Below, piece after piece: positions 23,867 through 43,041 of a stretch of 64,000 bases of DNA (position 1 is its first letter; each line of letters opens with the position of its first letter). The stretch is taken from NCBI GenBank assembly GCA_001683735.1, contig LUGG01000033.1, forward strand, positions 1-64,000, given 5' to 3'. The notes below the pieces were generated by a model. The model worked only from the letters and a program-made list of their open reading frames with translations, did not search any database and was not told the origin of the DNA. This DNA comes from Grifola frondosa. Taxonomy: Eukaryota > Basidiomycota > Agaricomycetes > Polyporales > Grifolaceae. The position numbers and the translations under genes are program-made.

Positions 23867-24076
23867 TTTACATCACGTTTCATCTCCCGCTGTCACGCAC
23901 CAAAAGTGTTTGGTACCTGGACAGGGCAAAATAACACCAATTTTGCGCATCCTATCATTAGCAAGTCACATGACATGGGACATCAACTAGGGACATGATC
24001 ACGTGCTCATACTCATAAATAAAGCACGATACTACTCAGTCGTTCCCAGGCATTCTTATTTCCCTCCGTCACAACC

Positions 24077-24518
24077 ATGCAAACACTTTCTTATGCCCAT
24101 GACACTCAAATTCCTCACTACCTAGTGCAGCGACAATCTCGCAAACATATTCTCACCCTCGATCCGGACCAGGATTACCCCACCCGAGTCTACTTCTCCA
24201 GCCCCTTCGTCTTATGGGACCTAACATCGAGTTCACTGGACGAATCGTCCGTACTCTTCAATTCCAGGAGACCCAGCTCATTGTCGCAGTGGAGCATTAT
24301 ACAGGCAGCAGGAGGTTGCAGTTGGGATTCCCTATTCCAGGTTGGCCATGTTTGAGTGGTTAGAGGCATGGATCATTTGGAACATTGCTCATCGCAGAGG
24401 AATGTTGAAGCCGAATGATGGCATAGTCCAGTTGCCGAAGAAGATGCTACGAGCAGGAGACGCGAGGCTGATGGACGAATTCCTGCTGATCTACATAGGA
24501 CATGGATGGAAAAACTAG
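24077..24518 (+). pseudogene. LTR-encoded ORF, 5' copy, frameshifted twice
   Basis: Same reading frame as the intact 147-codon ORF in the 3' LTR, but broken here by two one-base differences: a C run of four instead of five near 24,204, and a missing C near 24,310 (GGCAGCAGG versus GGCAGCCAGG). The first ATG stays open for only 92 codons. Because the two LTRs are copied from the same template on insertion, the breaks arose after insertion or are consensus errors. Confidence 0.7.
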
Positions 24519-25234
24519 GTTACATGATGATGTACACATTCTTCCCTCTCCCATGATCAGCACTCAGTCTGCATTACTCCAAAAGTCAAGATGTATGCTT
24601 ATGTGAAGGGAGTTACATAAGAAGGATTAGCAGAAGGATCTAGTTGGCCTGAAGAAGACTAATTGTGGAAGGACCCAGATGAGGCCTAGGCAAGCCTACA
24701 GACTCTAAGAATGTCCAGAACACACCAGCTCTTTTCAAAAGTCCAGCACAACCTAGGCTTATTGGAAGAGACCCTCAAATTCAGGGCATACTAGGTTAGG
24801 ACACCATTTTGGAGGCCAAGACAAGCCCAGGCAAGTCCCAGGACCACCTGGACAATAAGCCTAGACCAATATATAGGACACCAGAAAGTTCCAGAATAAT
24901 CTGGCCCTTTCTCAGAAAGCCCAGAGTGACCTAGGTTTATCAAAAGTACCCTCAAATCTGGGGTGTTGACAGTTAAAGACCCCAATTTGCAAGCCCAGAT
25001 GAACCCAGGCCAGTTCCATGACCACCTGGACCACAAGCCCAGACCATCTAGACAAGGCCCAGATATGAAGATCAGGAGGAAAGTAGCAGATATAAATAGA
25101 ACAGAAGGATTTGGTGCAGAAATGAGCTAAGAAAGGAAATCTTGTACTAATTATGTAGTTTTTCGTACTTTTGTAACATACCCTAGAAGGTTCCAGAACC
25201 AAGTGGAATGGAACATTCTAGAATTCCCTCAGGG

Positions 25235-25242
25235 TATAAAAG
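25235..25242 (+). promoter_or_regulatory. TATA box of the 5' LTR
   Basis: TATAAAAG preceded by CAGGG, about 680 bases before the LTR end. Its position suggests U3/R lies near 25,265 and that genomic RNA starts there. The same motif is at 42358-42365 in the 3' LTR. Confidence 0.7.
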
Positions 25243-25923
25243 CAGCTCAAGCTGGCCCTGAGGAGCAATCAATTTAGTGAGCTCTAGAGCCCCCAGAGAT
25301 CTGACTGACCCCTCTGTGCGGATATTTCCTTGGATTGTCAACTGTCCAGACTTGATCTGGAAGCACAAGTCCAAGAAGAGCATCTCAAGGACCCTACAAG
25401 GAGATAGGCTAGGTTGAGTACTCTGCAGTGAAATATTCTCAGTGGCAAAGAAGCGGATCGCGATACCAAAGAAGTACAAGCCTCAGTATCAGCAAGATTG
25501 TATCTTGGACCACTTGACTGTCCAGACACGAGCTCTGGAAGTGCAAATCCAAGCAAGAAGTCTCAAGGACTCTACGACGAAGTAGACTAGGTTGAGCACC
25601 CACAGGAATCAGGATTCAAGGCGATAGCATAGGAAGATAACGGCCACTTGGAACCCCATAATCTGGATCTTCAAAGATCAGAAACCCTCTGATTTCCGAA
25701 CTCGACTGAGCCTCTGACCGGAAAAGTAGGAAACCCCGTCACGCTTGGTGCAATTGGAGTATTTGAAGGTTTTAATTTCACATCACCCCACATTTCAGTT
25801 TTCACTGAAACCCTCGCACACAATTAATCCTTTGTGATAAATTCTGGTCTTGGAATTTATTTCTCACATTGGAACTCTTGACGTAAAACTTGATTTTCAT
25901 CTACCCCATACCTTACAAAGAGT

Positions 25924-25941
25924 TGGAGCCCACGCGAGGGG
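25924..25941 (+). promoter_or_regulatory. Primer-binding site, possibly tRNA-Cys
   Basis: Six bases after the 5' LTR the sequence begins TGGAGCCCACGCGAGGGG. It is complementary to a tRNA 3' end in CCA preceded by U73 and an acceptor strand CGUGGGC. U73 is typical of eukaryotic tRNA-Cys, so that is the likeliest primer. No matching tRNA gene is in this window to test it. Confidence 0.5.
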
Positions 25942-26061
25942 AGTTGAAAGCGATCTTTACAAGAACCCTGAAGTCCATAGGACCGAAATTTGGAGGCAGT
26001 TTTGATCTTTACTGATCCACACTATCACCCAAGCAAGGCCTTATTAGCAAGAGCAAGCAGC

Positions 26062-27540
26062 ATGTTTACGGATCATCGAGATCCACAGGATAATCACAGT
26101 CCATTGTCGGACACCCAGTTTTCCATGAGCGGATTCAGCAACCGGTCCGCAATGGATATGCCAGTCGAAGGAACCAAGAATGCCCCAAAGTTATTTAGGG
26201 GAAATGCAGCAGATGTTCGTCCATTTCTGCGCCACTTTGAGAAGTTGGCAGCCCTTCATCACTTGACCGCAGCAGAGAAATGTGAATTTGTCACAGACTA
26301 CTGCTCCAGGCGAGTCAGGGAGACGATTGAAGGCTTCTCTAGTCATAGAGGAGGAAATTGGGATGAACTAGAGCCAATGTTATCGTATACTTCAATGCAG
26401 ACCTGGAGTCAAAGAGATTTAGGCTCAAGGACCTCCAAGCATTCGCAGGCGAGTATAGGCAAGAAGCGATTCACGAATTGAAGGATTGGAGACGTTACCT
26501 TAGAAGTTCATCCGGATTGCAGGATGGCTTCAAGGTCAAGGGAAACTTACCGAGGATGATTACGCATACTATCTATGGATAGGCTTACCTCCTTCATTCA
26601 GGAAGAGGTTAGAAGCCAGAATCCTAGCCCTTCATCCGATGCATGATATGTCGGAACCATTCCAGCCAACAATGATTCAGCAGGCAGCTGAAGGATTGTT
26701 AGGAGCAGACCGATTCGATACAGAAAGGCTCGGATCTGAGGATATATTCAAGGGAGATAGCAGGATAGAGGATTCAGATTATGAAGAGAGCGACGATGAT
26801 AGGATATCACCAGTCAAGAAATCCAAGAGGCGATCGGCAAGGAGATCACGAGTTAAGTCATCAAGAGCATATGATGACAGTGACTCAGAGGATGATGATG
26901 AAGTATCACGACCAGCAGAGCCTGTGCCCAAGCTGAAGAAGAGTATAGGGAGAGTGGTGAAAGAGTCCCCAAAGGAGCCAGAGGAGTCAGAAATAGACAA
27001 ACTGGTCAAGCAGATGACTAAGTTGTCTGTTAATGATCCACAATATGGGATTTTGTTCTTAAAGGCATCCAGCATAAACCCATTGGTTACAAAATGCCTA
27101 CCACTTCCCAATGTTAATCAGGCACCAGCCTTTGGAAGACCAGTTCAAGCAGCAGGACCACCAAGATTCGAGAGGCCAGATCCTAATCGATTCTTACCAG
27201 GAAGATATACACCACTATCAGGAATAGGGTGTTACGGATGCGGAGAACAAGGACACATCATGGGAAATTGCCCAAAGGTTGAGGATTTACTATCTAAGGG
27301 ACATCTCCTCAAGGATTATCGGGGACGATTGACCAATAAAGATGGAATACCTCTCAATCGAAATGGAGCAGGAAATTGGGTACAAGCAATTAAAGATGCA
27401 GTGCCACATGTTCATTTCATAACCTGTGGGGAGCCTCTCATGGAATCAGAAGATGAAGACAATGCAAATGTCATGGTCTTGCCTGCAGAAGGACTCAAAA
27501 AGAGACGAGAACTTACCGGAAGCAGCCTTATGAAAGTGCA
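26062..27540 (+). CDS. gag: Gag polyprotein region, frameshifted
   Basis: The structural protein that packages element RNA into particles. First ATG in frame at 26062 (MFTDHRDPQDN). It then shows a retrotransposon gag domain: PKLFRGNAADVRPFLRHFEK, LTAAEKCEFVTDYCSR, WDELEPML, then in shifted frames ADLESKRFRLKDLQAFAGEY, LKDWRRYL and AYYLWIGLPPSFRKRLEARI. An acidic/basic linker (KSKRRSARRSRVK; DDSDSEDDDE) precedes a zinc knuckle of the form C-x2-C-x4-H-x4-C (CYGCGEQGHIMGNC) at 27230-27271, which binds RNA. Frame changes near 26,385, 26,507 and 27,520 each fit one missing base. No stop occurs within the inferred continuous frame, so Gag probably reads on into the protease region in an intact copy. 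Confidence 0.85.
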
Positions 27541-27549
27541 AAGCCTTCC

Positions 27550-28995
27550 ATGCCTAGCAAAGGAAGGCAGAGGGAAGCCCCTCCCCATACACCTGCTTAT
27601 AGTCCCCAGCCAGCAGCATCAAGTTCATATCCCCATTTCAAGGAACAGCCATTCGAAGCACAGCAGAGATCATTTGACCCAGATAATGATGCAGATATGG
27701 TTGATGATCCAGCCATATCAAGAATGCTTAGGAGTCAGCCAGACAGTCTCAAGAATGTGGAGAAGAATCGTGGACCAAATAGGACATCAGCAATTAGCAA
27801 AGAAGTGGACCCAGCAGGTATTATGAACAGGATCTTGAATATTCCTTTCACAATATCAGTTGGAGAGCTGTTTGGAGTGTCCAAGGAAGTGTCACAGCAA
27901 TTGCAAAATGTCTTGAAGGTCAAGAAAGTAGAAGCAGCACCAGGACCAGCAGCAAACCTAGTATCCGGATTTTCAGCAGATCTAGTCTCAGGAATAAATG
28001 AGACACGGTCACCCCTCATTCGATTGACCATGGATTGCAATGATAAACCAGTAAATTTTATCATTGACACAGGATCCCAATTGAATATAATCAGCGAGAA
28101 GATCTGGAAATCCATTGTGCAAAGACCGATGGATAAGTCACGAGCCATTAGCATTAATGATGCAAATGGCGGGACAGGAGACTTATTAGGGCTTGTCAGT
28201 GATGTGCCTCTTAAATTTGGTCACATAAGCACCAAGTTTAATGCATATGTCGCACCTAACCCTCCATTCGAAGGATTATTAGGGAGACCCTGGCAGCGAA
28301 CCCATGGTGTAGGAATACGAGAAAGGGATGAAGGAACCTTCCTTACTTTTAGAGGGCCTCCAGGCCATCCCGATTCAGAAGTCTTTATATCATCACATGA
28401 AGACATCGGAAGTGCAGCATCATTCACGACTATCATTGATGAGAAAGCCACGGACAGTAATCAGCCACAGACATCAGCTAGAATTGAGTCTGTCGATGAT
28501 GACCCTGGTGAATGTGGTGAAGAGAGCATTGATGACGAAGAATATGACCCAGATTCAGAAGATGTGGACTCAGACTCAGACAAGGATGACATAGACCCAG
28601 ATGAAGATTCAGACATGGAAGGTCTAGCCTCAGAATTCAGGAGAATTACGATAAAGAGAAAAACAGGAACTAGTCGATTGGACACCATGTATGATCACAA
28701 GACCCGAGAGATGGCCCTGTACCAATCTCTATTGACAGCTCAGATGGAGGATTACCGAGCAAGCCTAACCCGGAAGATTGGTGCAAATACCTTGGTAGCC
28801 GATAGTGGGATAGAGTTTTTGAAGAATGATCCAGGAAATTTTGGACCCCAGATTTTTCTTATTCGGGATGCGCAATTCTTCTTTGAAGACTCTCACTGCA
28901 ATGGACATGCGATTGTGCAGTTATATCCATATTCCAAAAAGAACATGGAGAAGCTTGGTCGTTTACTCGACGACCTGTTGATACTCATCTTATGA
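27550..28995 (+). CDS. First retropepsin-like protease domain with acidic tail
   Basis: Open frame of 481 codons continuing from Gag. Residues about 1-130 are a linker. The aspartic protease motif is NFIIDTGSQLNII (DTG at 28076-28084), and the second conserved segment is FEGLLGRPWQR about 70 residues later. Together these match the catalytic Asp loop and the hydrophobic-hydrophobic-Gly motif of retropepsins, which cleave the polyprotein. A long acidic region follows (DEEYDPDSEDVDSDSDKDD), then a folded-looking segment (GPQIFLIRDAQFFFEDSHCN, GHAIVQLYPYSKKNM). The frame ends at 28995, overlapping the start of the next one. Family assignment of the protease fold is firm; the acidic insert is unusual. 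Confidence 0.8.
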   Translation: MPSKGRQREAPPHTPAYSPQPAASSSYPHFKEQPFEAQQRSFDPDNDADMVDDPAISRMLRSQPDSLKNVEKNRGPNRTSAISKEVDPAGIMNRILNIPFTISVGELFGVSKEVSQQLQNVLKVKKVEAAPGPAANLVSGFSADLVSGINETRSPLIRLTMDCNDKPVNFIIDTGSQLNIISEKIWKSIVQRPMDKSRAISINDANGGTGDLLGLVSDVPLKFGHISTKFNAYVAPNPPFEGLLGRPWQRTHGVGIRERDEGTFLTFRGPPGHPDSEVFISSHEDIGSAASFTTIIDEKATDSNQPQTSARIESVDDDPGECGEESIDDEEYDPDSEDVDSDSDKDDIDPDEDSDMEGLASEFRRITIKRKTGTSRLDTMYDHKTREMALYQSLLTAQMEDYRASLTRKIGANTLVADSGIEFLKNDPGNFGPQIFLIRDAQFFFEDSHCNGHAIVQLYPYSKKNMEKLGRLLDDLLILIL

Positions 28996-30239
28996 TGTTA
29001 ACTGCTGAAGGATTGAAGCCCGATGTTGTTCCCCAAGTAGCCCAGTTTGGACCCACCTGCTATGATGGACTAGCACTTGGACCATGGTCGTACCTCGATC
29101 CAATGATTGTAATTCACATGCATGCTGGAAGCACCACCATTCCATTTGTAGTTGATACAGGATCCCAGATCGACTGTATAAATGCCAATGTATGGAAGTC
29201 AGCAAATGGAACAAACCGGGAAATAGGAAAAGAAGTTACCATCAGGGATGTATCGGGTAAACCTATGCCATGCATTGGAGCCTGGGATGTGGCCCTATCC
29301 ATAGGTCACGTAGAGACCCAGACAACCTTGTATATCATAGAAGGTTTAGCAGTACCTGGACTTCTTGGCCGACCATGGCAATGGAGGAATGAATTCAGTC
29401 TAAGCCACAAGCCGGAAGGAGTGTTTGTAGGGATTCGAGACTTTCATGGGGTAAACACCTATGAAATGCTCATTACCAGCCCAGGAATCCAGAAGGCAGT
29501 ACTGGATAGGACCTTACGATTATGTGCAATGTTAACAGCCGAACAGGAGACTGGAGAGATGAATGCAGCGAAAACCCAGAAGCTCGAGAACCAGCTATCA
29601 GAATTCCTGAAGCGACCCACGGAAGATGTACCCTCATATCGTTGGGAAGCTACAGATGGAGCACAATTGGTCGGACCAATATTGCTTAATGACCCAGAAT
29701 GTTGGCAAGATGATGGCAAGCCTCTAACGGAATCCAAGAATCCAAAAGGACTTACCGAATATGATAGATGGGTTGAAATGGAGAACCACCGTCTGTATGA
29801 CACTATAAAGGCAACCTACCAATTCCAATTGGGACAGCCTATGGATGACACTGCTTTCCCAATAACGGACATAACAGTTAAGAATGCCCGATCAGTTCGA
29901 GATGAGCCGAATGTAGAACCGTCAAGTATCAAAGACCAACAGTATCTGTTGCAAGACGTTAAAATGACTATTGATGGAAGACAGCGTGAAGGACATGCAA
30001 TTCTCCATATGGTATATACTCAGGAGAACTTACGAAAGCCTCCGGATGGTATCATGGACCCAAGCTTCATAACACCAGATATTGACAATCCCGTGACAAA
30101 TCAGGAACCCCAAGTTTATAATCAGAATATTCATAGTCCGATAATGAGCCTGGAGGAAGACCATTATAATAAATGGAAACAGGATCTTGAAGCAGGCGGA
30201 TGGGAATTGGACAATATACAGCTAGAGGGAAGTTTCTAG
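28992..30239 (+). CDS. Second retropepsin-like protease domain
   Basis: Open frame of 415 codons starting with the ATGATG that overlaps the previous stop. It has its own protease hallmarks: TTIPFVVDTGSQIDCINANV (DTG at 29154-29162) and VPGLLGRPWQWRNEFS. Both key segments are arranged as in the first domain. A C-terminal part follows (VRDEPNVEPSSIKDQQYLLQ, then GHAILHMVYTQENL) that mirrors the C-terminal part of the first domain (GHAIVQLYPYSKKNM). The whole protease-plus-tail unit therefore looks duplicated. Whether both are active is unknown. They could form a heterodimer, since retropepsins work as dimers; that is inference. Confidence 0.75.
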   Translation: MMLTAEGLKPDVVPQVAQFGPTCYDGLALGPWSYLDPMIVIHMHAGSTTIPFVVDTGSQIDCINANVWKSANGTNREIGKEVTIRDVSGKPMPCIGAWDVALSIGHVETQTTLYIIEGLAVPGLLGRPWQWRNEFSLSHKPEGVFVGIRDFHGVNTYEMLITSPGIQKAVLDRTLRLCAMLTAEQETGEMNAAKTQKLENQLSEFLKRPTEDVPSYRWEATDGAQLVGPILLNDPECWQDDGKPLTESKNPKGLTEYDRWVEMENHRLYDTIKATYQFQLGQPMDDTAFPITDITVKNARSVRDEPNVEPSSIKDQQYLLQDVKMTIDGRQREGHAILHMVYTQENLRKPPDGIMDPSFITPDIDNPVTNQEPQVYNQNIHSPIMSLEEDHYNKWKQDLEAGGWELDNIQLEGSF

Positions 30240-30453: not shown

Positions 30454-30888
30454 CTAGGCACTAGCAGGGAACACCCCAGCCATCCTAGAATATCAGGGAA
30501 TCAAGTTAAGCGAATGAAGAAAAAGGATGCAAAATGACTTACGGCAGCTTGATTGGGGATGTGTCGGTACCACCAGCTTGAATGGTGACAGTACCAACTC
30601 CCTAGTCAACAAGAATCTGCATTAGGAAAATTGCATTCAGAAAATAATAGAGATGGACTTACGTCGATAGTCTCAATGGCAACAATCTTACCGGTCCGGA
30701 CAGTTCCACCTTCGAAGAAGCGGACAGAAGAATCAATCTGAAACTCAGATTAGCATTCCCAGATCGATCGAGATCGAATAGAGCCAAAGGGGACTTACTT
30801 CGTAGGACGGCATGTGGAAGTAGGAGTTCAAGAAGGGATTGAACCAAAAGGAAATTCCATTGCCATTATATAGGCCAAGACTTGACAT
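30454..30888 (-). CDS. Antisense four-exon gene, 84 codons, inside the retrotransposon
   Basis: Exons (minus strand): 30888-30799, 30737-30663, 30601-30543 and 30484-30454, separated by introns of 61, 61 and 58 nt. All introns begin GTAAGT and end YAG with plausible branch sites. All joins are in phase and the frame ends at TAG 30456-30454, giving 84 residues. The protein begins MSSLGLYNGNGISFWF, continues EIDSSVRFFEGGTVRTGKI and TVTIQAGGTDTSPIKLP, and ends MAGVFPASA. No family is recognised; the repeated Gly/Thr/Val pattern suggests a small beta-rich domain. An alternative first part exists: an exon at about 31165-31096 (MPIALMAYAATCIFLVRN), joined via a short exon ending near 30898, would also splice in phase to exon 2. 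Introns antisense to the element's RNA would not be spliced out during retrotransposition. Confidence 0.65.
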
Positions 30889-33061
30889 CACTTACCTCAC
30901 AGAATTTGATGGGCGCAGCATCGCTAACCGATGAGTCGTTAAGGTGGCGACAAACAAGTTAATATTACCGGACCAGATTAGGAAACAAGGAACCAAGCAT
31001 TAGGACAAGGAATCGGGTTTGATGTATAAACCAGGGGCGCAACAGGAAATTGATGACAAGTACCCGATGGGGCAAGTTTGTCTGCAGGACGTACCTAGGA
31101 CTACTCCGTGAATTTCGGACTAGGAATATGCAGGTTGCGGCATAAGCCATGAGAGCTATGGGCAATGCATACAGTCAATTCAGGTAGTCAGTATTGTGCC
31201 TGGACTCTTGAAGACCCCAGTGGTAAAGCAGGAAGGCGTCGAGGTCAATGTATATTCAAATTAAAAAGCACCCATTCACAGGATTAACAGGGAAAGGAAC
31301 TCCGGTAAAAGAAGAAATTAACTTGTCCACAAGACTCATTAGCCAAGCTCGAGAAGCAATTCAGTTTGCTTGCCTTATTGGAATTCGAGGATAAAATCAA
31401 GCTCGCATTGTGCCGAACCCAGTAGCGGATCGAAGCCTAGTTATTTGGCAAGCGGAAAGAAAAGAACCCAAGTTAGTAACGAATAGGACCCATTTGGTAC
31501 AGGTAGCATGAGGACAAGACAGGACACAGGACACAGGAACAGGAATGGGCATGAAGCCACCAGAAGAGTTACCAAGGACAAGCATGATTACAGGAAGCTA
31601 TACCTACCAAGTAGAGATCCATGAAGCCTTGCTTGATTGTCATCTGTTTTTGAATACAAATTCAAGTATTTAAAACAAAGGCAATCATGCAACAGTCACG
31701 ACCAAGCCATGAGTAAGGAGTTTGGTGCGGAGAGCACTGTCAGCTGAGCTGATCAGGCCGCGAACTCCTTCGAGATGATGTTGAACAGGATACCCATCAG
31801 TTTTGGGTCAAGTAAAGTTGAGGAGTCATCGGACACTTATCACAGCATTTGGATGTGATGCGAGACGTTCGGTGCCGAAGCCAGGAAGTACAGGACAAGA
31901 GGAATGTATGAGGTAATGCTAGCCACGGTTTAATGTGAACTGTGGGGCGACACAATATTCTGAAAGAAGAAATGTGTCTACGCCAGGCATACAAACGAGA
32001 AGTGCGACCGGGTCGCAGTAAAGATATATGGAAAGGAGATACAGGAAGAAGAAAAGCAACCTAGGAAAGTGCAAGGTTAATGAGGCCGACAGAGATGAAG
32101 CAGGCAAGAGACGTACCAGGATAAGGTCCGAGACGGCATGAATATGGCCGACGAACGAGTACCCAACATGTGTCGAGTACGAGGGACCTAGTGACAGAAG
32201 CCCGAAGTTATCAGCGGGATATATGAAAAGACGAAGCCAAGAACGTACCGCGAAGACACCGGCAGTTCTGAGTGAACTTGGGGCGGCGGACAGCACCAAA
32301 AGGTCGATGGGTGTTGCTGATAAGCCGAGACATCAGCATAGCCCATAGAGAATGCAGAGAACTAACGGAAGAGGACTCACCAAGGGTAGGATCAGATGCT
32401 ACGTGCCATGAGCTCTGAATGCGAATGTACAGCGCGACGAAAGACGTGTGCACACCAGCATAGCTGAGCATTCGGATGCCCCACGGTGCGATCATCGTAG
32501 GAATGGCCCGGTGTTGAAAGCGTGTGTGCCGAGTGTTCGTGCACTTGCAGCGCATCCAACCTATAGAAAGATGAAGTCAGCGGCGAGCATGAGATGTCGA
32601 GAGAGACGAGCCTAGAAGGCCGTACGCCCACCAAGCCCTGGGACGTACGAACTGTAGAGAGGGAGGAGCGGTCGTCGAGGTGTGCGCCCGCACAGGTGAG
32701 TGAAGCACCGGTGCAGAAATACATAGAAGCGCGACACCACCTGGTAAAGAAACAGCAGCGAGGACCGAAGGAACTGGAGAAGGAGTCCGAGACTTACCAG
32801 GATTGTGAAGAGGAGAGAGACCGTCCAGCGTCGGGACAGCGGCACGCGAACGTCGAGTACGCTCACCCGTAAAGCAAGTGCGTCCGCTGGGATTTGAGCT
32901 AGGGATGCAGTCATTGGACGGCTAGCGATGACGCGACGAGACCGTAGTAGCCTCGATCTGCATAAAAAGGAAGTCAGCGGCGCATTTTTATAGCCCGCCG
33001 AGAAACGATACGAGAACGTACGAGAACTCGAAGGAATGTTCGAGTTAGGATGATTCAGCAC
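30889..33061 (-). other. Antisense exon-intron region of the retrotransposon
   Basis: The minus strand shows a series of consensus introns. Examples are about 32794-32742 (GTAAGT...TACCAG), 32380-32317 (GTGAGT...TATCAG), 32249-32189 (GTACGT, branch CTGATAAC, CACTAG) and 32118-32063 (GTACGT...CCTAG). Possible exons between them read MTASLAQIPADALALRVSVL (start 32914), MIAPWGIRMLSYAGVHTSFV, and RGPSYSTHVGYSFVGHIHAV. Further left, LLDPKLMGILFNIISKEFAA ends at a stop near 31757. The peptides are partly hydrophobic, so a membrane protein is possible. I could not settle one continuous model, and this could be one gene, two genes or a decayed gene. Confidence 0.4.
32986..32993 (-). promoter_or_regulatory. 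TATA box for the antisense region
   Basis: Reads TATAAAAA on the minus strand, 72 bases upstream of the candidate start codon at 32914, with a possible 5'-UTR intron acceptor (TTTTTATGCAG) in between. It supports transcription opposite to the element's genomic RNA. Confidence 0.45.
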
Positions 33062-33797
33062 GAGTCACAGGGACTCAGTGCGAGTCATAGGAAGGGAGGT
33101 CATGGGAGAAGGTCAGACGACCTGTGCACAAGTCCAGAGTTAGCGGAGAGAGTCTGGAAGACAGGGAACTAGGAGACATACTGAGGAGGCAGCGCGAGGA
33201 CGCCACAAACGCGACGCGTTGGTAGCGGAAGGAAGAGGCCTCGAGCAGACGAAAGGAGTCAATGCCAAGGCCGAAGAACAGCTAGATGAAATAGGAATTT
33301 GAGATAGAAGAGGCCGAGTGTGCCCATGACCTGTCCAGGATATGAAATATCGAGAATGGAAGAGGCCGCAAGCCTCGTCGGGACCGCCAGATTTGCAAAG
33401 CGCGATGCGCGTGCTGCAAGAATCAAGCGCGGACGAATCTAGCGAAAGAGAGATCAGCAAGAGATCGAAATACCGGACAAATTCAAGCATATGAAACAGG
33501 GGAAGATAGTGTCAGGTGGCCTCACCTGAAATCAGGGGCCGAGTCGAGAAGTCCGCAGGCCGATCGACGACAGATCGGGCAGAGGCGTAGAGATGCGTCC
33601 GCGAAGTGTAGGAGACCGGCGGATTCGAGGCCAGTCAGCTGGACAGTTCATAGAGAGATCTAGGAAATGGAGATTTTGAGCAGAGTGATCGACAAGAGAG
33701 GCAGTTGGGAATGCGCGCGCCGTGCAGAGTCGTTTGGAGGCAAGCAAGGAGGACAGGGATATTGAACAAAGGCGAGAGGAGACCTGTTGGGAAAAGG

Positions 33798-33805: not shown

Positions 33806-33851
33806 AGAGCACGAAATCATGGAAGAAAGACGGACCCGCCTTCTCTTACGA

Positions 33852-35065
33852 ATGGCAACCCCTTCCTATTTCGCACTAATGCGTCGACTGCTTCGCGGCC
33901 GAGTCCGCGCTGGGATCGACTATATCAGTTCCATCAAAAGATTCACGGCTTACCTGCCCTTCCATCCTCGGACGATCCGATCTTGACGGCGTCCGAAGTG
34001 CACCATTGCCCAAGAGGAATTGCGCCATGGTCGAGAAGCTCGCAGTGCCCGGATCCGACAATGACATTCCTCGTGAAGGACGCGTGCCTCCGAAGTAGCC
34101 TCAGCACGGTCCGCGGCGACGCCGTGATCATCTTCGACACCAGCTTGGACGACGGGAACCCACGATGCAGGCCCGCCATCGAACCCAGCAACCCGGAGGG
34201 ATCCTACGAAGGGACGACAACAGCTGGACCCCTTGTCGGCTCAGTAACAATCGACCGCGCGGTCGATTCGCCTCCGTATGTGGTCCGTTCACCTTCACAC
34301 GCACGCCCCGTCGTACAGCCCGCGTTCGCCCTCGTACTCACCTCCGTGCACGCCGCCTTTGAAGACCACGCCCGCACACGAATTAGCAGCGCAGGAACGA
34401 TTCCAGTCCCTCGTCGACGTCGCAGTGGCCGCCTTGAATGCTGGACGCGCTCCGAGAGGTTGAGGAAAGATGAGGCAATGGAAGACTATGTCCAAGTAGG
34501 GGAAGAAGGAGCCCACGAAGCTGAAGAACAAACGGAAGAAGGAGAGGTTAGAATGACAGAAGAGCAAGTTAATGGTTGGTGCGCACTTACCGAACGGCTG
34601 CGCGACCGACGCGCCGGTTCGCCGCGCGACCTCGGACGACTCGAGCTCCCTCACCTACGTCCAGGACGTCCCGATGGAGACCGCCGTAGTCCCGCGTCGT
34701 GCACCCGAAGAGCCTGCTGACCCGCGCAAGAGACTCCGCGCGTTGGAGAACGTCCGAAGCTACAAGGAACCGCGCCGTACGTACCCTTTATTCGGGAGGA
34801 GGCGCAGGCTGAGGAAGCTCGTCAAATTAGCAGCGGACCGGTCAACCGAGAGACTGATCAGGGACATACCTGTCACCAGGGTGGTGGTTCTCGAAGGGAA
34901 CGACCGTCAAACGCTTGACTCCGTCCTCAGGTGCCCGCCAAGGACTGGAACAACACGGACTGCACCTTCCTGAGTGACGTGATCGCAGCCATCACGCTCG
35001 CGCTCAAGGCACTCGGAGGTGGAGACGGTGGCCATCCGGGTCTGCTCGTTGATCCAGGGAGGTAG
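33852..35065 (+). CDS. Sense-strand accessory gene region, unresolved exons
   Basis: Follows a TATA box. Coding-like segments lie in different frames: MATPSYFALMRRLLRGRV (from 33852), APSYSPRSPSYSPPCTPP (about 34305-34358), ELAAQERFQSLVDVAVAALN, DEAMEDYVQVGEEGAHEAEE, DDSSSLTYVQDVPMETAVVP, RKRLRALENVRSYKEPRR, then after a probable acceptor (CTCAG near 34930) DWNNTDCTFLSDVIAAITLA, ending at TAG 35063-35065. The SPSYSP-like stretch resembles the RNA polymerase II tail repeat but is only two units long. No family is recognised. Whether frame changes are introns or indels is not settled. Confidence 0.35.
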
Positions 35066-35418
35066 GATGCCAAGCTTGAGAGGCCAGGGAGATGACGAAA
35101 ACGCGCACGAAGCGCGACCAGTAGCCGAAGCCCGAGAGATGACAAAAGATCTGTAAAGGATCAGTATGCAGCCTGTAACGATACGTACTATGCCGGAGGG
35201 AGAAAAATGCGAGATAATTTCTAGAAGAAATTCAGGATCTCGCCGTGCTGAAGCAACCGATCCCGATCGAAAAAGAAATGGACCGTCGAGAACGAGCGGA
35301 CGCGTCTCGTATGGATGCGCCGAGAGGATCTAGAGAGAGAGGAAAAGGATATAAGTCAGATGCATGCGAAGAGTTTGAATAGTCAAACTCACCGATGCGC
35401 CCGTCACCGAATCCAGCC
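35066..35418. other. Spacer between accessory genes
   Basis: About 350 bp without a supported gene. It contains a weak TATA-like GGATATAAG near 35347, about 70 bases before the next start codon. Confidence 0.35.
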
Positions 35419-35840
35419 ATGGACGAGCTCGCCCGACGCTTCGCCGCGTTGTCGCTAGAAGAATCTGTTGAGGTAAGGCGGCCTGATAGGACAGGAGTCA
35501 GCTGATACTATGCACACAGAGTATCGAAGAAGAAGCACGTACCGAGGAACCTGCAAGGGGACGCACTGTAGAACGCGAAAGGACGCGTTCCCGTTCCTGC
35601 AGCAGCTCGTTCGCGCCGTGCCGACCGCGAAGTTGGTGGGCCAGAGTAGCTAGCCCGAGTTGGAACCCAGAGCATGCGCTCCGAGTCAGCCGTGAAGCAA
35701 GGGAGGAATGGCGAGTGTACGCCGCGTTGAAGAAAACTCGAGATGCAGGAAGAGATGGTGAAGGAAGTGAGGGAGAAACCGTTGGGAATGAAGGAAGCAC
35801 TAGTGAATGTGCTACGTTCAGAACGCCTTTGGAACAGTAA
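35419..35840 (+). CDS. Sense two-exon accessory gene, 124 codons
   Basis: Exon 1 35419-35472 (MDELARRFAALSLEESVE), a 47-nt intron 35473-35519 (GTAAGG, branch CTGAT, CACACAG), exon 2 35520-35840 ending in TAA. The join is in phase and exon 2 stays open for 106 codons. The protein is highly charged (SIEEEARTEEPARGRTVERE, then VSREAREEWRVYAALKKTRD) with predicted helices and no known motif. Its sense intron would be lost if a fully spliced RNA were reverse transcribed. Its presence means this RNA is not spliced when packaged, that splicing is inefficient, or that the segment was acquired after the last cycle. Confidence 0.5.
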
Positions 35841-36709
35841 AGCATGTACGCTCACCGTTTGATATACCAGCGTTGGCGATCAACGCGTGGCGCGAGAGAC
35901 ACGCGAACGTTGACGACCGTCAAGCGAATGGTCCAAGCATGCTGGGAAAACGTCGAGGAATGCAGAAGACGTGTTGGCATCAGCGCAGGAGTCAGCCAAC
36001 GCGTAGCGGCCATTGTAGCAGTGCCAGCGAGAGAGTGTGGAGAGCGCGAGAGACAGGCAGAGAAGGGAACGCATGGAAGAACCACGGAGATAGGGCTGAG
36101 GGGATAACGGGAAGCAGAGAAGATACACGAAGGAATCATCCGGCGCCCAAGGGCAGGCCAGGAACGAGACTAGGATGCCAGCAGGAAGGGAAGAGAAGCC
36201 AGACGAGATAATAAGGAACGAGCGCTGAGGAGGCACCGATAGAGAGACGCGTCGCGTCGAAGTCACCTGACGGCGAAACCAGACGCGGAAGTCAGAAGCG
36301 CGCGCTCGAAGAGAAACGCGCGCTCAAAGGTTCCAGAGACACAAGTCACAACGGTGACTTCGGTGTCACCTCGGCCAGTGACTGACGCCTGAGCGTCACT
36401 TGCGCAACCAAGACCCAAATGCGGACGGTACTGATAATTACAGTACCAGGAGTGGAAACTTTTGACATCTTGACCTTGTGCAGGTCAAAATATGTTGAAA
36501 TTAATTCATTGCACACTCTGAGAACTGATGTTATGCAGTATATGGAGGAAACAAGTCAGTATTCAAGGATTTGACTATCTTTCTAATGTAAACAGTGCAT
36601 AAGAAAGACAAGTTATAATCCTGGGTCACTCAGAACCAGCTGGAAGGACCTAGAAGTTTCAGGAACAAGTTCTGATGACTCATTCCAGAGCCTAGGCCCA
36701 GAGGAGACA
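35841..36709. other. Accessory segment, no firm gene
   Basis: Contains a charged plus-strand frame (35844-36107; VKRMVQACWENVEECRRRVG) that may be a further exon of the preceding gene. A GC-rich stretch runs to about 36,360, then composition returns to that of the retrotransposon core. Confidence 0.3.
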
Positions 36710-36718
36710 TATATAAAG
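36710..36718 (+). promoter_or_regulatory. TATA box before the ORF at 36766
   Basis: TATATAAAG, 48 bases upstream of the ATG at 36766. A second internal sense promoter candidate within the retrotransposon. Confidence 0.5.
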
Positions 36719-36765: not shown

Positions 36766-37062
36766 ATGACATCACTGTCTTTGGAAGAGAAATTGGAGGA
36801 CCCCGAGTTCAGGAAGAGATACGTAGCCAAGTTACTGAAAGAAATGGAAAAGAAAGAGAAGCGAAAGGCCTATAGGGAGAAGAGACAGTCTTCCCAATTT
36901 CGCACCAGGAAACAGACTATGGAGGATATAGGACGGAAGTGTCAGCATAATCGGCAGAAGGCCAATAAGGAAAGGCAGCGGACAAATTACCAAACAGAGT
37001 TATCCCTACCAAAGTTCCTTCGACCCGATCCATATTCATTACCCGATACTATTGAGGAATAA
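36766..37062 (+). CDS. Small Lys/Arg/Glu-rich accessory protein, 98 codons
   Basis: ATG at 36766 shortly after a TATA box. The protein is dominated by charged helix (LEEKLEDPEFRKRYVAKLLK, EMEKKEKRKAYREKR, NRQKANKERQRTN) and ends PKFLRPDPYSLPDTIEE. It is probably a coiled coil or nucleic-acid-binding helix. No homologue is recognised. A second basic frame (37169-37438; GRRRKRPKKTDAETEERDK) follows and may belong to the same gene. Both lie just before pol. Confidence 0.4.
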   Translation: MTSLSLEEKLEDPEFRKRYVAKLLKEMEKKEKRKAYREKRQSSQFRTRKQTMEDIGRKCQHNRQKANKERQRTNYQTELSLPKFLRPDPYSLPDTIEE

Positions 37063-37561
37063 GCAAGACTTATCCTTAGAGACGCAATCATGGACTGTTT
37101 CCTATATGAACATCCACTCTCCAATCATTCACGAATGACGACATAGAGGCCGAGGAACAGAGGTCGAGATGAGTGTGGATGTGAGCATGGAAAAGGGAGA
37201 GGAACTGGAGGATGGGCTATATGCGCCACCCCTAAGCCTGAAGACCCGAGTCCAAAGGGCAAGAGGGCATGGCAGAAGAAGGAAGAGGCCGAAGAAAACT
37301 GACGCGGAAACAGAGGAAAGAGACAAGGAGTCCTTGCGAGTGACGATGCAAAAGAAAGCTTATGCCAAGAAACTAGGGATTGGGAAAGGGACAAAAAGGG
37401 ACTTGACCACCAGTAACGAATCAGGACAACGTCCGTAAATGACGTTAAACTAGACATACCTGGATTTGTAGTTGTCGCCACCCCCAGTTTTGGAGCCCTT
37501 TATTGTTATCACAACCAACCAGCACTCAACAAGAGCCACGAAGTGAGCCGAGAATACTGAA

Positions 37562-40500
37562 ATGAGCTATATGCCATTTATCAGTATGCCACTTTCCACA
37601 AGTAGTACAATGCAGCAAAAGAATTACCTAGGAGACCACGAGGTAGCACAATCTATGGATTGTGCGAATGACGCAGTATATGTATACAAGCCAGTGGACC
37701 GAAGGGTGAAGCCAGTTCCCGGTGTTTTTCCAGAGGATGCACGTGTAAGACGATGTTTTCCAGAGAATCCACTGGACTCGTTATCCCAATTACCCTTCAA
37801 CCCACCTGACTTTGTACCCACGAGGAAGCTTACCATGGAGCGAATGAAGGAGATGAAGATCAATGAGGCAGGATTTTTATGGCCTGAAGAAGAGAAGTTA
37901 TTCAGGCATATAATCCAGTTGAACGAAAGAGTTCTTGCCTTTGACGAGACTGAACGAGGAACATTCCGAGAGGATTACTTTTCCCCTTATATAATTCCGG
38001 TAATACCGCATGTCCCATGGGTTGATAAAAACATCCCCATAGCACCAGGTATCCGAGATAAGGTGGTCGACCTACTACGAGAGAAGATTGAAGCAGGAGT
38101 ATATGAGCGATGCCAGTCCTCATACAGATCAAAATGGTTTTGTGTTCTAAAGAAAAATGGCAATTTAAGAATTGTCCATGATCTTCAACCACTTAATGCC
38201 ATTACAATTCGAGATGCAGGAGTACCCCCGATTCTGGATGCATTCGTAGAACCATTTGCAGGAAGACAGTGCTACTCCGTGTTTGACTTGTTCTGGGCCT
38301 TCGATGCCAGAAAAGTTGATGTAACAAGCAGAGATATGACAGCATTTCTCTCACCACTGGGATTGTTGCGAATCACATCAATGCCAATGGGATTCACAAA
38401 CTCTCCAGCAGAATTCCAAGCCTGCATGACCTTTGTATTGCAAGACGAGATCCCACAGATAGCAAATGTGTTCATTGATGATCTACCCATCAAAGGACCG
38501 GACACCATTTACCCAGATGAAGAAGGAAATCCAGAAATCCTATGTCAGAACCCTGGCATCAGAAGGTTCATATGGGAACATGCCATGGACGTTCATAGGA
38601 TAATGCATCGAGTCGGTCAGGCTGGACTTACATTTTCAGGACCCAAGTCCCAAATTTGTAAGCCACATGTCGTAATCGTTGGACACAAATGTACACCAGA
38701 AGGAAGAATACCAGAAGATGACAAGGTCGCTAAAATTCAGAATTGGCCCACCCCTCGCTCAATTCGAGAAGTTCGAGGATTTATGGGATTATGTGGAACA
38801 GTCCGAATATGGATTCGAGACTATTCTGAGCAAATCCGGCCGATGAAGGAATTGACCTTTAAAGGAGCCGAATTCTCTTGGGATCAGCGACGGCAAGCAT
38901 CTTTTGATACACTCAAGCAGCTAGTATCATCAGCACCTGCCCTTCGCCCAATTAATTACCAATCAGAGAATCCAATCATCTTATCAGTAGACTCAAGCAA
39001 GTATGCGGTAGGATTTATCCTCTCACAAATGGACGATGAAGGAAGAAAGAGACCAGCACGATATGGTTCTTTGCCGATGAACGAGACAGAATCAAATTAT
39101 AGTCAGCCAAAGTTGGAACTGTATGGTCTATATCGAGCCCTGAGGCATTTTAGACTATATTTGGTAGGCGTGAAACACCTCCACGTAGAAGTCGATGCCA
39201 AATACATCAAAGGAATGCTGAATGAACCTGACCTGCAGCCTAATGCCACAATTAATCGTTGGATTCAAGGCATCCTTCTGTTTGACTTCAAATTGATTCA
39301 TGTACCAGCAGTACACCACAAGGGACCAGACGCACTATCACGAAGAGCCTTAGGAGATGGAGAGACAATTGAAGGAGATAATGACGAATGGCTGGACAAT
39401 ATTGCCCTGTTCATCCAACTTTCTCAACCAGTATATGGAAAAAGGATATATGGACCATTCCCCGAGACAGTTGAACCAGATACACGAGTTTTTGTCTCAA
39501 CCACATCAAACCAAGATGTCTGTCTTCGGCAGATCAGAGACTTTCTGAATACCTTGGAAATGCCTCACTTTTCCAGCCCTGCTGCGAAACTACGTTTTGC
39601 CCGGAGAAGCAAACATTATTTCGTAAAGAATAATTTGCTATTCAGAAGACAGAAGAATGGAATACCTACCCGAGTAGTACTGGAAGCCAGTGAAAGGATA
39701 TCAATCCTCAGACAAGCGCATGATGAACTAGGACATCGAGGAGAATACGCTACTTTCGAGACAATACGATTACGCTTCTTTTGGCCATTTTATGGGCAGA
39801 TGTGCACTACTATGTGCAGTCATGCAGAGAATGCCAATTACGGAGTGTCAAGAAAATAGTAATGCCTCTTCGAATCTCCACACCAGCCACGTTATTCACC
39901 AAGGTTTATATGGACATTATGTTTATGCCCATAGCAGGGAAGAAGACATGTATAGTAGCCTGCCGAGATGATTTATCAGGAGTAACAGAAGCCCGTGCCT
40001 TAAATGGGACATCTTCTGAGGCAGTGGCCAAGTTCTTCTGGGAACAAATCATCTGCCGATATGGAGCCATAGGTCAAGTAACCACAGATAATGGACCAGA
40101 AACCAAAGGAGCATTCGAGAAATTGGCTCAGAAATATGGTATTCCGCATGTGCGAATATCAGCCTATAATTCCCGAGCCAATGGCGTAGTTGAACGAGGA
40201 CACTTCATTCTCAGAGAAGCACTGATAAAGGCCTGTGAAGGAAAAATCTCCCAATGGCCAGACCTTCTATCACATGCTTTATTTGCAGATCGTGTCACCA
40301 CAAGACGAGCAACAGGGTATAGCCCTTACTATCTATTACATGGAGTCCATCCAGTATTTCCAATGGACTTACGGGAGGCAACCTTCATGGTAGATGGATT
40401 TCACAAGGACATGTCTCATTCAGACCTTCTAGCATTACGAATACGACAGCTAGAACGTCGACCAAAGGATGTATCTCAAGCTGCAGAAGCTCTCACCAAG

Positions 40501-40953
40501 TCACGGTTAACTTCCAAGGAGCAGTTTGAAAAGAAATTTGCCCACAGGCTATTTCAAGAAATTCATTCCCCAGGAGACTTGGTTCTTAAGCGAAACTCAG
40601 CAATTGAACAGGAGATGAATAGGAAGCATAAGCCGAGATATCTAGGACCATATGAAGTTGTTAGGAGAACCCGAGGAGGAGCCTACATCTTGAAGGAATT
40701 AAATGGAGATGTAATCAGAGAAACAGTGGCCGCATTCAGGCTTCTCCGATATCATCCTTCAGCAGAAGATTTGGAGGACCTGCCAAATGAACCAGAACTC
40801 TTACAGTACCCAAGCCAGACAGAGATAGATCAGGAAAACCTGGAGGCAGAAGAAGATACTCGAGGGAGCCAAGAACAGGAATCTAGGAATATGAAGCCCA
40901 AGTCAAGCATAAATCAGGAATCAGTCAGCCAGCGAACCAGGAGTCATAAGTAG
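37562..40953 (+). CDS. pol: Pol: reverse transcriptase, RNase H, integrase; one frameshift
   Basis: Start ATG 37562 (MSYMPFISMPLSTSSTM). RT: EAGVYERCQSSYRSKWFCVL, LKKNGNLRIVHDLQPLN, GRQCYSVFDLFWAFDA, MPMGFTNSPAEFQACM and the catalytic NVFIDDLPIKG (38471 on), a variant of the YxDD box. RNase H: ILSVDSSKYAVGFILSQ, PKLELYGLYRAL, HVEVDAKYIKGML, HKGPDALSRR. Integrase: HDELGHRGEYATFETI with CRECQ (HHCC zinc motif), then catalytic acidic residues in MDIMFMP, TTDNGPE and NGVVERGHFILREA, and a GPY-type C-terminal module (RYLGPYEVVRRTRGGAYILK). No chromodomain is visible. The frame breaks at about 39,789 in a T run, inside the HHCC region, and resumes one base off to the stop at 40953. The order RT-RNase H-IN defines Ty3/Gypsy. 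Confidence 0.93.
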
Positions 40954-41001
40954 GAAAGAAGATGTTCAAAAGAGAGTGACGACTGGGGACAGTCGAGTAA
41001 C

Positions 41002-41012
41002 TGTGGGGCGGA
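41002..41012 (+). promoter_or_regulatory. Polypurine-type tract before the 3' LTR
   Basis: TGTGGGGCGGA lies directly before the first base of the 3' LTR, the position of the plus-strand primer. It is purine-rich but interrupted by T and C, so it is an imperfect polypurine tract. Confidence 0.45.
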
Positions 41013-41136
41013 TGTCACGCACCAAAAGTGTTTGGTACCTGGACAGGGCAAAATAACACCAATTTTGCGCATCCTATCATTAGCAAGTCACATGACATGG
41101 GACATCAACTAGGGACATGATCACGTGCTCATACTC

Positions 41137-41144
41137 ATAAATAA
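41137..41144 (+). promoter_or_regulatory. TATA-like box upstream of the LTR ORF
   Basis: ATAAATAA, 55 bases before the ATG at 41199 and followed by a pyrimidine-rich leader (CTTATTTCCCTCC). An E-box-like CACGTG lies about 18 bases upstream. The same arrangement is present in the 5' LTR (24015-24022). It suggests the LTR ORF has its own promoter. Confidence 0.5.
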
Positions 41145-41198
41145 AGCACGATACTACTCAGTCGTTCCCAGGCATTCTTATTTCCCTCCGTCACAACC

Positions 41199-41642
41199 AT
41201 GCAAACACTTTCTTATGCCCATGACACTCAAATTCCTCACTACCTAGTGCAGCGACAATCTCGCAAACATATTCTCACCCTCGATCCGGACCAGGATTAC
41301 CCCACCCGAGTCTACTTCTCCAGCCCCCTTCGTCTTATGGGACCTAACATCGAGTTCACTGGACGAATCGTCCGTACTCTTCAATTCCAGGAGACCCAGC
41401 TCATTGTCGCAGTGGAGCATTATACAGGCAGCCAGGAGGTTGCAGTTGGGATTCCCTATTCCAGGTTGGCCATGTTTGAGTGGTTAGAGGCATGGATCAT
41501 TTGGAACATTGCTCATCGCAGAGGAATGTTGAAGCCGAATGATGGCATAGTCCAGTTGCCGAAGAAGATGCTACGAGCAGGAGACGCGAGGCTGATGGAC
41601 GAATTCCTGCTGATCTACATAGGACATGGATGGAAAAACTAG
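41199..41642 (+). CDS. LTR-encoded ORF, intact 147-codon copy in U3
   Basis: ATG at 41199, stop TAG at 41640-41642. The protein starts MQTLSYAHDTQIPHYLVQRQ and includes PTRVYFSSPLRLMGPNIEFT, LIVAVEHYTGSQEVAVGIPY, FEWLEAWIIWNIAHRRGML and ARLMDEFLLIYIGHGWKN. Alternating beta-like and helical segments suggest a compact globular domain. I recognise no family and see no signal peptide. It lies wholly in U3, so it is present twice in the integrated element and at the 3' end of the genomic RNA. This position is comparable to the accessory genes that some vertebrate retroviruses keep in U3, with no sequence similarity implied. A TATA-like box and leader directly upstream suggest independent expression. 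Confidence 0.65.
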   Translation: MQTLSYAHDTQIPHYLVQRQSRKHILTLDPDQDYPTRVYFSSPLRLMGPNIEFTGRIVRTLQFQETQLIVAVEHYTGSQEVAVGIPYSRLAMFEWLEAWIIWNIAHRRGMLKPNDGIVQLPKKMLRAGDARLMDEFLLIYIGHGWKN

Positions 41643-42357
41643 GTTACATGATGATGTACACATTCTTCCCTCTCCCATGATCAGCACTCAGTCTGCATTA
41701 CTCCAAAAGTCAAGATGTATGCTTATGTGAAGGGAGTTACATAAGAAGGATTAGCAGAAGGATCTAGTTGGCCTGAAGAAGACTAATTGTGGAAGGACCC
41801 AGATGAGGCCTAGGCAAGCCTACAGACTCTAAGAATGTCCAGAACACACCAGCTCTTTTCAAAAGTCCAGCACAACCTAGGCTTATTGGAAGAGACCCTC
41901 AAATTCAGGGCATACTAGGTTAGGACACCATTTTGGAGGCCAAGACAAGCCCAGGCAAGTCCCAGGACCACCTGGACAATAAGCCTAGACCAATATATAG
42001 GACACCAGAAAGTTCCAGAATAATCTGGCCCTTTCTCAGAAAGCCCAGAGTGACCTAGGTTTATCAAAAGTACCCTCAAATCTGGGGTGTTGACAGTTAA
42101 AGACCCCAATTTGCAAGCCCAGATGAACCCAGGCCAGTTCCATGACCACCTGGACCACAAGCCCAGACCATCTAGACAAGGCCCAGATATGAAGATCAGG
42201 AGGAAAGTAGCAGATATAAATAGAACAGAAGGATTTGGTGCAGAAATGAGCTAAGAAAGGAAATCTTGTACTAATATGTAGTTTTTCGTACTTTTGTAAC
42301 ATACCCTAGAAGGTTCCAGAACCAAGTGGAATGGAACATTCTAGAATTCCCTCAGGG

Positions 42358-42365
42358 TATAAAAG
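42358..42365 (+). promoter_or_regulatory. TATA box of the 3' LTR
   Basis: TATAAAAG, counterpart of 25235-25242. In the 3' LTR it could drive transcription into the downstream flank. Confidence 0.6.
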
Positions 42366-43041
42366 CAGCTCAAGCTGGCCCTGAGGAGCAATCAATTTAG
42401 TAAGCTCTCAAAGCCCCCAGGAGATCTGACTGACCCCTCTGTGTGAATATTCCCTTGGATTGTCAACTGTCCAGACTGAGATTCTGGAAGCACAAGTCCA
42501 AGAAGAGCATCTCAAGGACCCTACAAGGAGATAGGCTAGGTTGAGTACTCTGCAGTGAAATATTCTCAGTGGCAAAGAAGCGGATCGCGATACCAAAGAA
42601 GTACAAGCCTCAGTATCAGCAAGATTGTATCTTGGACCACTTGACTGTCCAGACACGAGCTCTGGAAGTGCAAATCCAAGCAAGAAGTCTCAAGGACTCT
42701 ACGACGAAGTAGACTAGGTTGAGCACCCACAGGAATCAGGATTCAAGGCGATAGCATAGGAAGATAACGGCCACTTGGAACCCCATAATCTGGATCTTCA
42801 AAGATCAGAAACCCTCTGATTTCCGAACTCGACTGAGCCTCTGACCGGAAAAGTAGGAAACCCGTCAGCTTGGTGCAATTGGAGTATTTGAAGGTTTTAA
42901 TTTCACATCACCCCACATTTCAGTTTTCACTGAAACCCTCGCACACAATTAATCCTTTGTGATAAATTCTGGTCTTGGAATTTATTTCTCACATTGGAAC
43001 TCTTGACGTAAAACTTGATTTTCATCTACCCCATACCTACA

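Follow-up and report, generated by a model that had tools for sequence, protein, structure and literature searches.

A 64,000-nucleotide stretch of Grifola frondosa DNA (contig LUGG01000033.1, positions 1 to 64,000; assembly GCA_001683735.1), called the window here, holds a Ty3/Gypsy long terminal repeat (LTR) retrotransposon with additional genes. The element occupies positions 23,891-43,041 (19,151 bp) and is bounded by two LTRs. Its order is LTR with an open reading frame (ORF) in U3, gag, protease 1, protease 2, an antisense intron-bearing gene, gene 2, gene 3, reverse transcriptase (RT)-RNase H-integrase, and LTR (Table 1). The hallmarks of Ty3/Gypsy elements were found, namely TG..CA LTR ends, a primer-binding site, a polypurine tract, and a short target-site duplication (the duplication in other copies), and the Pfam domains follow the Ty3/Gypsy (Metaviridae) order: protease ORFs, then RVT_1, RT_RNaseH, integrase H2C2, and rve. 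A 7.3-kb block fills the gap from the end of protease 2 (30,239) to the pol frame (37,547). An earlier note on this DNA had described a 19-kb Ty3/Gypsy element with LTRs of about 2.03 kb, a Gag zinc knuckle, proteases, and an RT-RNase H-integrase set, with a 7.3-kb insert between the second protease and RT; LTR comparison, motifs, and Pfam matches confirmed this description, insert included. The genomic RNA probably starts at the LTR TATA box at 25,235, as judged from its sequence. The tandem aspartic proteases (27,457-30,239) are about 25% identical to each other, and family-E and family-F loci (defined below) also have a second match (30-32%) immediately upstream of protease 2. Protease and RT do not lie in one polyprotein or in adjacent frames, as their match edges are at least 5.6 kb apart in all 30 pairs found; this separation is treated as a variant feature, not usually decisive for Ty3/Gypsy membership. 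Pfam gave no chromodomain at the integrase C-terminus, where only a weak SH3_Tf2-1 match below cut-off was obtained. There is no env gene after integrase, the integrase frame stopping at 40,953 and the LTR starting at 41,013. An Rfam search of the 23-44 kb stretch gave no known RNA, and a tRNA search of the window found none.

TABLE 1 Features of the element, with coordinates in the window
Feature	Coordinates	Strand	Remarks
5' LTR	23891..25917	+	2,027 bp; begins TGTCACG, TTACA at end
LTR ORF of 5' LTR	24077..24515	+	Broken by small indels; three overlapping matches, 24077-24214, 24181-24336, and 24306-24515
LTR TATA box, GGTATAAAAGC	25235..25241	+	Present too in the subfamily-B LTR
Primer-binding site, TGGAGCCCACGCGAGGGG	25924..25942	+	TGGAGCCCACCGCGAGGGG in other copies; predicted from sequence
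gag region	25981..27826	+	Two frames in the window copy; CCHC knuckle 27,230-27,271
Protease 1 ORF	27457..28995	+	DTG at 28,066; Pfam E 4.8e-9
Protease 2 ORF	28887..30239	+	DTG at 29,154; Pfam E 4.3e-5, under curated cut-offs
Antisense gene exon 3, GVGTVTIQAGGTDTSPIKL	30543..30601	-	
Antisense gene exon 2, IDSSVRFFEGGTVRTGKIVAIETID	30663..30737	-	
Antisense gene exon 1, MSSLGLYNGNGISFWFNPFLNSYFHMPSYE	30799..30888	-	
Exchangeable cassette (variable upstream region and gene 2)	32000..35990	+	Limits read from 250-bp windows
Gene 2 TATA box	33798..33804	+	Found in A, B, and D copies C2 and C20
Gene 2	33854..35110	+	421-aa ORF in copy C2; frameshifted in the window copy
TATA box before gene 3	36710..36717	+	Also in B and D copy C2; pattern not found in D copy C20
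Gene 3	36769..37062	+	97-aa Lys/Arg/Glu-rich protein
Further small ORF	37169..37438	+	89 aa; partly conserved
pol ORF, RT and RNase H	37547..39859	+	First ATG 37,562; FIDDL at 38,471; Pfam
Integrase frame	39727..40953	+	DIMFMP at 39,913, TDNG at 40,084; Pfam
Polypurine tract region, ..CTGTGGGGCGGA	40999..41012	+	Nearly identical in other copies
3' LTR	41013..43041	+	2,029 bp; TGTCACG...TACA
LTR ORF, intact, U3 of 3' LTR	41199..41642	+	147 aa

Searches covered one genome (39.06 Mb, 64 contigs). Counts are lower bounds, the scored candidates being 40 of 191 for the LTR, 40 of 56 for the block, 58 of 266 for RT/pol, 94 of 158 for protease 2, and 102 of 180 for integrase; for gene 2, every candidate was scored, and 70 matches were clustered by hand into 35 loci. 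Subfamilies were named by hand as A (the window), B (copies C1, C29, and C43), and D (C2, C5, C6, C12, C19, and C20). Families E, F, and G were set by protease-2 identity (39-53%, 32-47%, and 41-42%, respectively). The LTR search with DNA returned at least 11 LTRs at 99-100% identity and others at about 78%, several pairs being about 17 kb apart. Copies C7 and C25 also hold the whole 7.3-kb block at 99%; it occurred in large pieces in C18, C20, and C21, and was present in pieces at 65-86% in at least 18 diverged copies, 14 of which hold both end pieces in the correct order by hand count, a recurrence far beyond chance.

Protease 2 lies 3.2-5.6 kb upstream of gene 2 on the same strand in 33 of the 35 gene-2 loci. 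One of the other two is at a contig start, and one pairs only at 13.2 kb, probably by a wrong pairing with a nested element. Downstream of gene 2, an RT match was found in 28 loci (27 at 1.7-2.6 kb and one at 7.3 kb); of the other seven, six belong to family E and match integrase about 2.6-3.0 kb downstream, the seventh being close to a contig end. Thus, RT or integrase follows in 34 of 35 loci, protease 2 and RT both flank gene 2 in 26, and all 35 adjoin protease 2, RT, or both. The earlier note had made recurrence of the cargo in other copies its condition for a lineage of accessory-gene retrotransposons, and the cargo does recur, at the same place and in several families. The note had named direct joins of protease 2 to RT in all other copies as the result that would refute it; such joins numbered 0 among the 30 protease-2/pol pairs found, 27 of which had match edges 5.6-8.1 kb apart and the other three 11.7-15.3 kb apart. 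The position holds even in families whose gene 2 is only about 30% identical. These positions indicate that, in this genome, the lineage has long carried the cargo as a fixed component at one place. Since C1 and C29 have a common flank, alleles or duplicated contigs may have entered some of the counts. Gene 2 is missing within 16 kb at 15 of the 51 protease-2 loci. Of these, nine belong to family G, three have 6.4-7.5 kb before pol, two are near contig ends, and one is a 28% match.

Integrase, together with protease 2 and gene 2, was matched without RT at six family-E loci: C1:3,362,353, C7:605,492, C12:1,030,098, C17:359,277, C21:310,362, and C27:28,057. The missing RT match is weak evidence of absence, as both RT searches are incomplete and one misses RT in copies where the other finds it (e.g., C7:144,653). 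LTR-ORF pairs are 14.7 kb apart at the C7, C12, C21, and C27 loci and 15.8-16 kb apart at three RT-bearing copies. Loss of pol as a whole was rejected for these six copies, where integrase is still matched and only the RT match is missing; they are perhaps RT-deleted, non-autonomous elements that keep gene 2. Examples of family G lie at C14:929,678-937,840 (L068) and on C5, C44, C4, C12, C7, and C19. A 471-aa ORF with an internal repeat was seen in L068, the one locus read for it. The first 703 bp of the family-G LTR, including the LTR ORF, are 93-95% identical to the window element, which suggests modular LTR exchange, the elements perhaps being mobilised in trans. In a distant pol copy considered as an outgroup (C13, 40% pol identity), protease-like sequence apparently lies a few hundred bases before pol; its RVP_2 match (E 0.13) is weak and was not relied on.

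The earlier note had placed an extra ORF in each LTR. This holds for the 3' LTR, whose ORF is intact, and not for the 5' LTR, where it is broken into three pieces. The ORF is assigned to U3 because it lies upstream of the LTR TATA box, provided that this box starts the genomic RNA. In the LTR-ORF search, 37 of 149 matches are full length (residues 1-147), stop-free, and 73-100% identical, family-G LTRs included. In the LTR search (best 40 of 191 candidates), at least 10 LTR sequences match subfamily A over their first 703 bp only, at 93-95%. Between A and B, the ratio of nonsynonymous to synonymous substitution rates (dN/dS) of the LTR ORF is 0.15 (dS 0.86, 147 codons). Family E has a 27% match to the LTR ORF over about 50 residues, in pairs 14.7-16 kb apart, at an E value of only about 0.04. 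An MPT-synthase match of the LTR ORF (E 0.036) was discarded when it weakened to an E value of 0.67 with a two-sequence profile; the best match of that profile, a pilin (E 0.023), was not believed.

Intron-bearing genes had also been claimed for the insert. The claim fails for gene 2, which is taken to have no introns because copy C2 has one open 421-codon frame from an ATG; the frame changes in the window copy are 1-base indels, and introns were rejected as their cause. One gene does appear to bear introns, namely the antisense gene, on the minus strand. The splice sites of its introns (GTAAGT-type donors, AG acceptors) are conserved in A, B, and D, and across its exons the dN/dS between A and D copy C2 is 0.21 in the splice-defined frame versus about 0.8 and about 1.1 in two wrong frames (73 codons). 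A search of the same genome with this gene returned the element copies and nine other loci. Four of the nine (L061-L064, on C22, C4, C8, and C6) were read and are AT-rich repeats (28-30% GC) with an exon like exon 2; in L061, read by eye, the intron position equals that of the antisense gene. In retrotransposons, sense introns are spliced out of the genomic RNA before reverse transcription, and antisense introns are not recognised as introns there. By this established retrotransposition biology, the antisense gene would have kept its introns since the packaged strand does not hold them as introns. The single-frame sense genes and LTR ORF, together with the intron-bearing antisense gene, fit an element that moved through RNA with its cargo aboard, and would make a natural illustration of retrotransposon introns surviving only where a gene runs antisense.

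Gene 2 and gene 3 each have a TATA box (at 33,798 and 36,710), in keeping with the promoters that had been claimed for the insert; both boxes are predicted from sequence patterns. A codon-period signal was detected in parts of both genes. For the N-terminal part of gene 2, dN/dS is 0.22 (A-D) and 0.16 (B-D), the A-B dS being saturated, and for the C-terminal part it is 0.24-0.33 among A, B, and D. The gene-2 homologues of family E are 29-34% identical. Gene 3 was found at about 40 loci (49 matches, clustered by hand) in A, B, D, and F and in five of the six RT-less family-E loci, with weak matches in family G beside the LTR (E 1e-4 to 4e-3). Its proportions of nonsynonymous and synonymous differences (pN and pS) between A and D copy C20 are 0.19 and 0.76, and its dN/dS between B and D copy C20 is 0.30 (54 codons), with dS saturated for A-B. 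For pol, dN/dS between A and D copy C20 is 0.04 (452 codons). The 89-aa ORF has dN/dS of 0.14-0.42 and may not be a gene of its own. These ratios show purifying selection on gene 2 as well as on the antisense exons and the LTR ORF.

Divergence is uneven along the element. B (C1) and D (C20) are closest at the start of pol (1.9%) and just before pol (3.1%), followed by the antisense block (4.2%), gene 3 (7.6%), protease 2 (10.7%), and the stretch at 36.0-36.7 kb (12.6%); they are far apart in gene 2 (32%) and in the 1.8 kb upstream of it (35%). The distances of B and D from A are 39-40% in gene 2 and 46-49% upstream of it, and the B-D divergence of the cassette is little lower. The cassette region has a GC content of 0.53-0.61 in A, B, and D (0.60-0.61 in gene 2 itself) versus 0.39-0.44 at the start of pol. 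The simplest reading of this pattern is that about 32.0-36.0 kb was replaced by recombination in B or D; gene conversion of the remaining element would look the same.

Taken together, these results make it likely (probability about 0.7) that the element belongs to a lineage of Ty3/Gypsy LTR retrotransposons that are large and bear accessory genes in their genome. Several observations weigh against this reading, beginning with its basis in a single genome. Frameshifts interrupt gene 2 in the window copy, as in many others, and its dN/dS relative to family E is 0.39-0.45 or undefined. Nine family-G copies of protease 2 have no gene-2 match and no RT or integrase among the matches listed, and gene 2 would therefore be dispensable for some moving elements. 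Gene 3 has no match in five family-E loci with an RT match, and the antisense exons have no codon period in 90-bp windows. The dN/dS values come from two to four sequences, with saturated dS in the A-B comparison of N-terminal gene 2 and in two gene-3 comparisons, and pol comparisons with B (157 codons, pN 0.14-0.18) were set aside as spoiled, presumably because B carries a frameshift. Pfam and PDB searches gave no credible match for gene 2 or the LTR ORF, Pfam gave nothing credible for gene 3, and single-sequence structure models had a mean predicted local distance difference test score (pLDDT) of 48 for the LTR ORF and 32 for the gene-2 N-terminus. Given the lack of credible Pfam and PDB matches and the low-pLDDT models, the functional step below is a guess. 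The gene-2 frameshifts may be sequencing errors at methylated CpG or real decay. Among A copies, substitutions and indels in gene 2 number 8 and 7 (C28-C7), 7 and 9 (C28-C25), and 2 and 5 (C7-C25); the indels are of C and/or G in 4 of 7 (C28-C7) and 5 of 5 (C7-C25), and CG is often adjacent.

It is highly improbable that the insert arose by a nested insertion private to the window copy or by an error of assembly there. Complex transposons built by repeated insertion are in print for fungi, in the part of the source consulted (PMC3248453), and the window copy has no matching target-site duplications and has flanks reciprocal to those of copy C25, which implies that it was recombined or mis-joined as a whole. 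The recurrence of the block and the conserved spacing of protease 2 and pol refute a private origin of the insert, protease 2 lying upstream and RT downstream at similar distances at 26 gene-2 loci in families that are 20-70% diverged. It is unlikely that the cargo consists of captured host genes that ride along and do not help the element. The higher GC content of gene 2 than of the start of pol would suit such genes, as would the host-like antisense introns and the related exons at nine loci outside these elements (the four read being AT-rich); purifying selection across a long divergence argues against mere passengers, as does the place of gene 2 beside protease 2, RT, or both at 35 of 35 loci.

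The antisense block might instead be a non-coding regulatory DNA or RNA element, its exon frame being a relic, which we regard as doubtful. The DNA identity of A and D at 30,740-31,240 is 0.84-0.91, a pol-like level that extends to the non-exon parts, and this agrees with a non-coding role, as does the missing codon period. A relic frame is hard to reconcile with a low dN/dS confined to the splice-defined frame, with conserved donor and acceptor sites, and with a related antisense exon in family G (tblastn E 4e-4). For the cargo genes, a role as extra structural or enzymatic particle parts (e.g., Gag-like or envelope-like) in place of regulators is possible. The cargo lies between the proteases and RT, gene 2 is retained at the six family-E loci with protease 2 and integrase and no RT match, and gene 3 is small and basic, like nucleic-acid-binding particle proteins; against this, the cargo has TATA boxes of its own, is not in one frame with Gag-Pol, and has no Pfam match.

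The reading of the element as a carrier of accessory genes leaves room for a tentative proposal on their role, in which gene 2 and gene 3 would be regulatory proteins that aid expression of the element against host silencing, with cassette swapping driven by an arms race. The choice of regulators rests on the TATA boxes that the two genes have to themselves and on a cassette that changes fast and brings its own upstream region; the odds for a particle component are about the same as for an anti-silencing regulator. In the proposed sequence of events, a long RNA from the LTR TATA box (25,235) would give Gag and the proteases. Pol would need its own mRNA because 7 kb lies between the proteases and RT, and this separate mRNA would come, probably, from the promoter at 36,710 or via splicing. 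The cassette at about 32.0-36.0 kb would change fast and be swapped between subfamilies because of the conflict between host and element. Possibly, the element represents a complex retrotransposon lineage, in which fungal Gypsy elements have a retrovirus-like accessory set and several promoters, and in which conflict with host silencing drives the exchange of cassettes between families. If so, the accessory set would comprise the U3 ORF, a small basic protein, the fast-evolving gene-2 cassette, and the antisense intron-bearing gene. The layout also poses a mechanistic question, namely how pol is expressed with 7 kb between it and gag-protease.

Accessory ORFs in the U3 of the LTR and small basic accessory proteins are familiar from mouse mammary tumour virus sag and lentiviral nef, rev, and tat; the element here differs in its fungal host, in that no sequence similarity was shown, and in having no room for env after integrase. 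Searches of viral contigs gave no relatives of gene 2 or the LTR ORF. The VANC anti-silencing proteins of VANDAL DNA transposons are likewise fast-evolving, element-encoded proteins beside fast-evolving non-coding sequence, although the class of element differs.

The closest printed kind, within the portions of the sources consulted, is that of plant Gypsy elements with extra ORFs, and the novelty of the fungal lineage is provisional. Plant OTA-clade Gypsy elements (Ogre, Retand, and Athila) resemble it in their very large size (up to about 24 kb), large LTRs, and extra ORFs in forward or reverse orientation; in the same portion, the extra ORFs scored lie outside the polyprotein, and they are described as a heterogeneous group with doubtful function (PMC6317226). 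In Grifola, by contrast, the gene set lies between protease and RT and is recurrent by position and selection. The question of extra-ORF function thus becomes testable, since position and reading frame are conserved across divergent families of one genome. Phygy, a Ty3/Gypsy element of Physcomitrella, shares the NCGN insertion preference of the target sites read here, but is described there as short, with a polyprotein that fills nearly the whole inside, whereas the Grifola element is 19.15 kb with cargo (PMC6317226). Fungal complex transposons, which the part consulted presents as Ty1/Ty3 elements bearing additional domains, are explained there by several insertions into the same locus (PMC3248453), unlike the Grifola architecture, which is inherited across families.

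LTR pairs differ by 0-2 substitutions in C7, C18, C1, and C43, by 6 in C29, by 10 in C25, and by 16 (with 7 indel events over 2,020 aligned bases) in the window; some members have therefore moved recently. Independent insertion is supported by exact 4-bp NCGN target duplications, namely ACGT (C7 and C18), ACGG (a solo LTR in C3), and GCGT (C43). The window copy is flanked by CCGC/GCGC, without a matching duplication, and the C25 copy (C25:233,595-252,748) by the reciprocal GCGC/CCGC. The window 3' LTR and the C25 5' LTR differ by one substitution; relative to the C18 LTRs, the window 5' LTR has 0-1 and the C25 3' LTR 1-2 substitutions, although the window 5' and C25 3' LTRs differ by 8. The grouping of the LTRs is thus largely in line with the flanks. 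From these comparisons, the two copies appear to have arisen by reciprocal recombination, either real or introduced in assembly, and the two flanks of the window may therefore not be true neighbours.

Elsewhere in the window, a DNA transposase with a weak DUF4218 match (E 0.0038, below cut-off), which we take to be Plavaka-like, lies at 47,200-50,331 on the minus strand; a link of the antisense gene to this neighbour was suspected and dropped, as no convincing match was found. Direct repeats of about 0.9 kb at 4,817-5,746 and 19,091-20,011, 14.27 kb apart and identical over the first 300 bp, with a partial third copy at 15,498-15,967, are perhaps another LTR element. A repeat array at 45,304-47,063 has spacings of 70, 180, and 250 bp and GC up to 0.65, and repeat copies at 18-bp spacing occur at 52,624-52,979.

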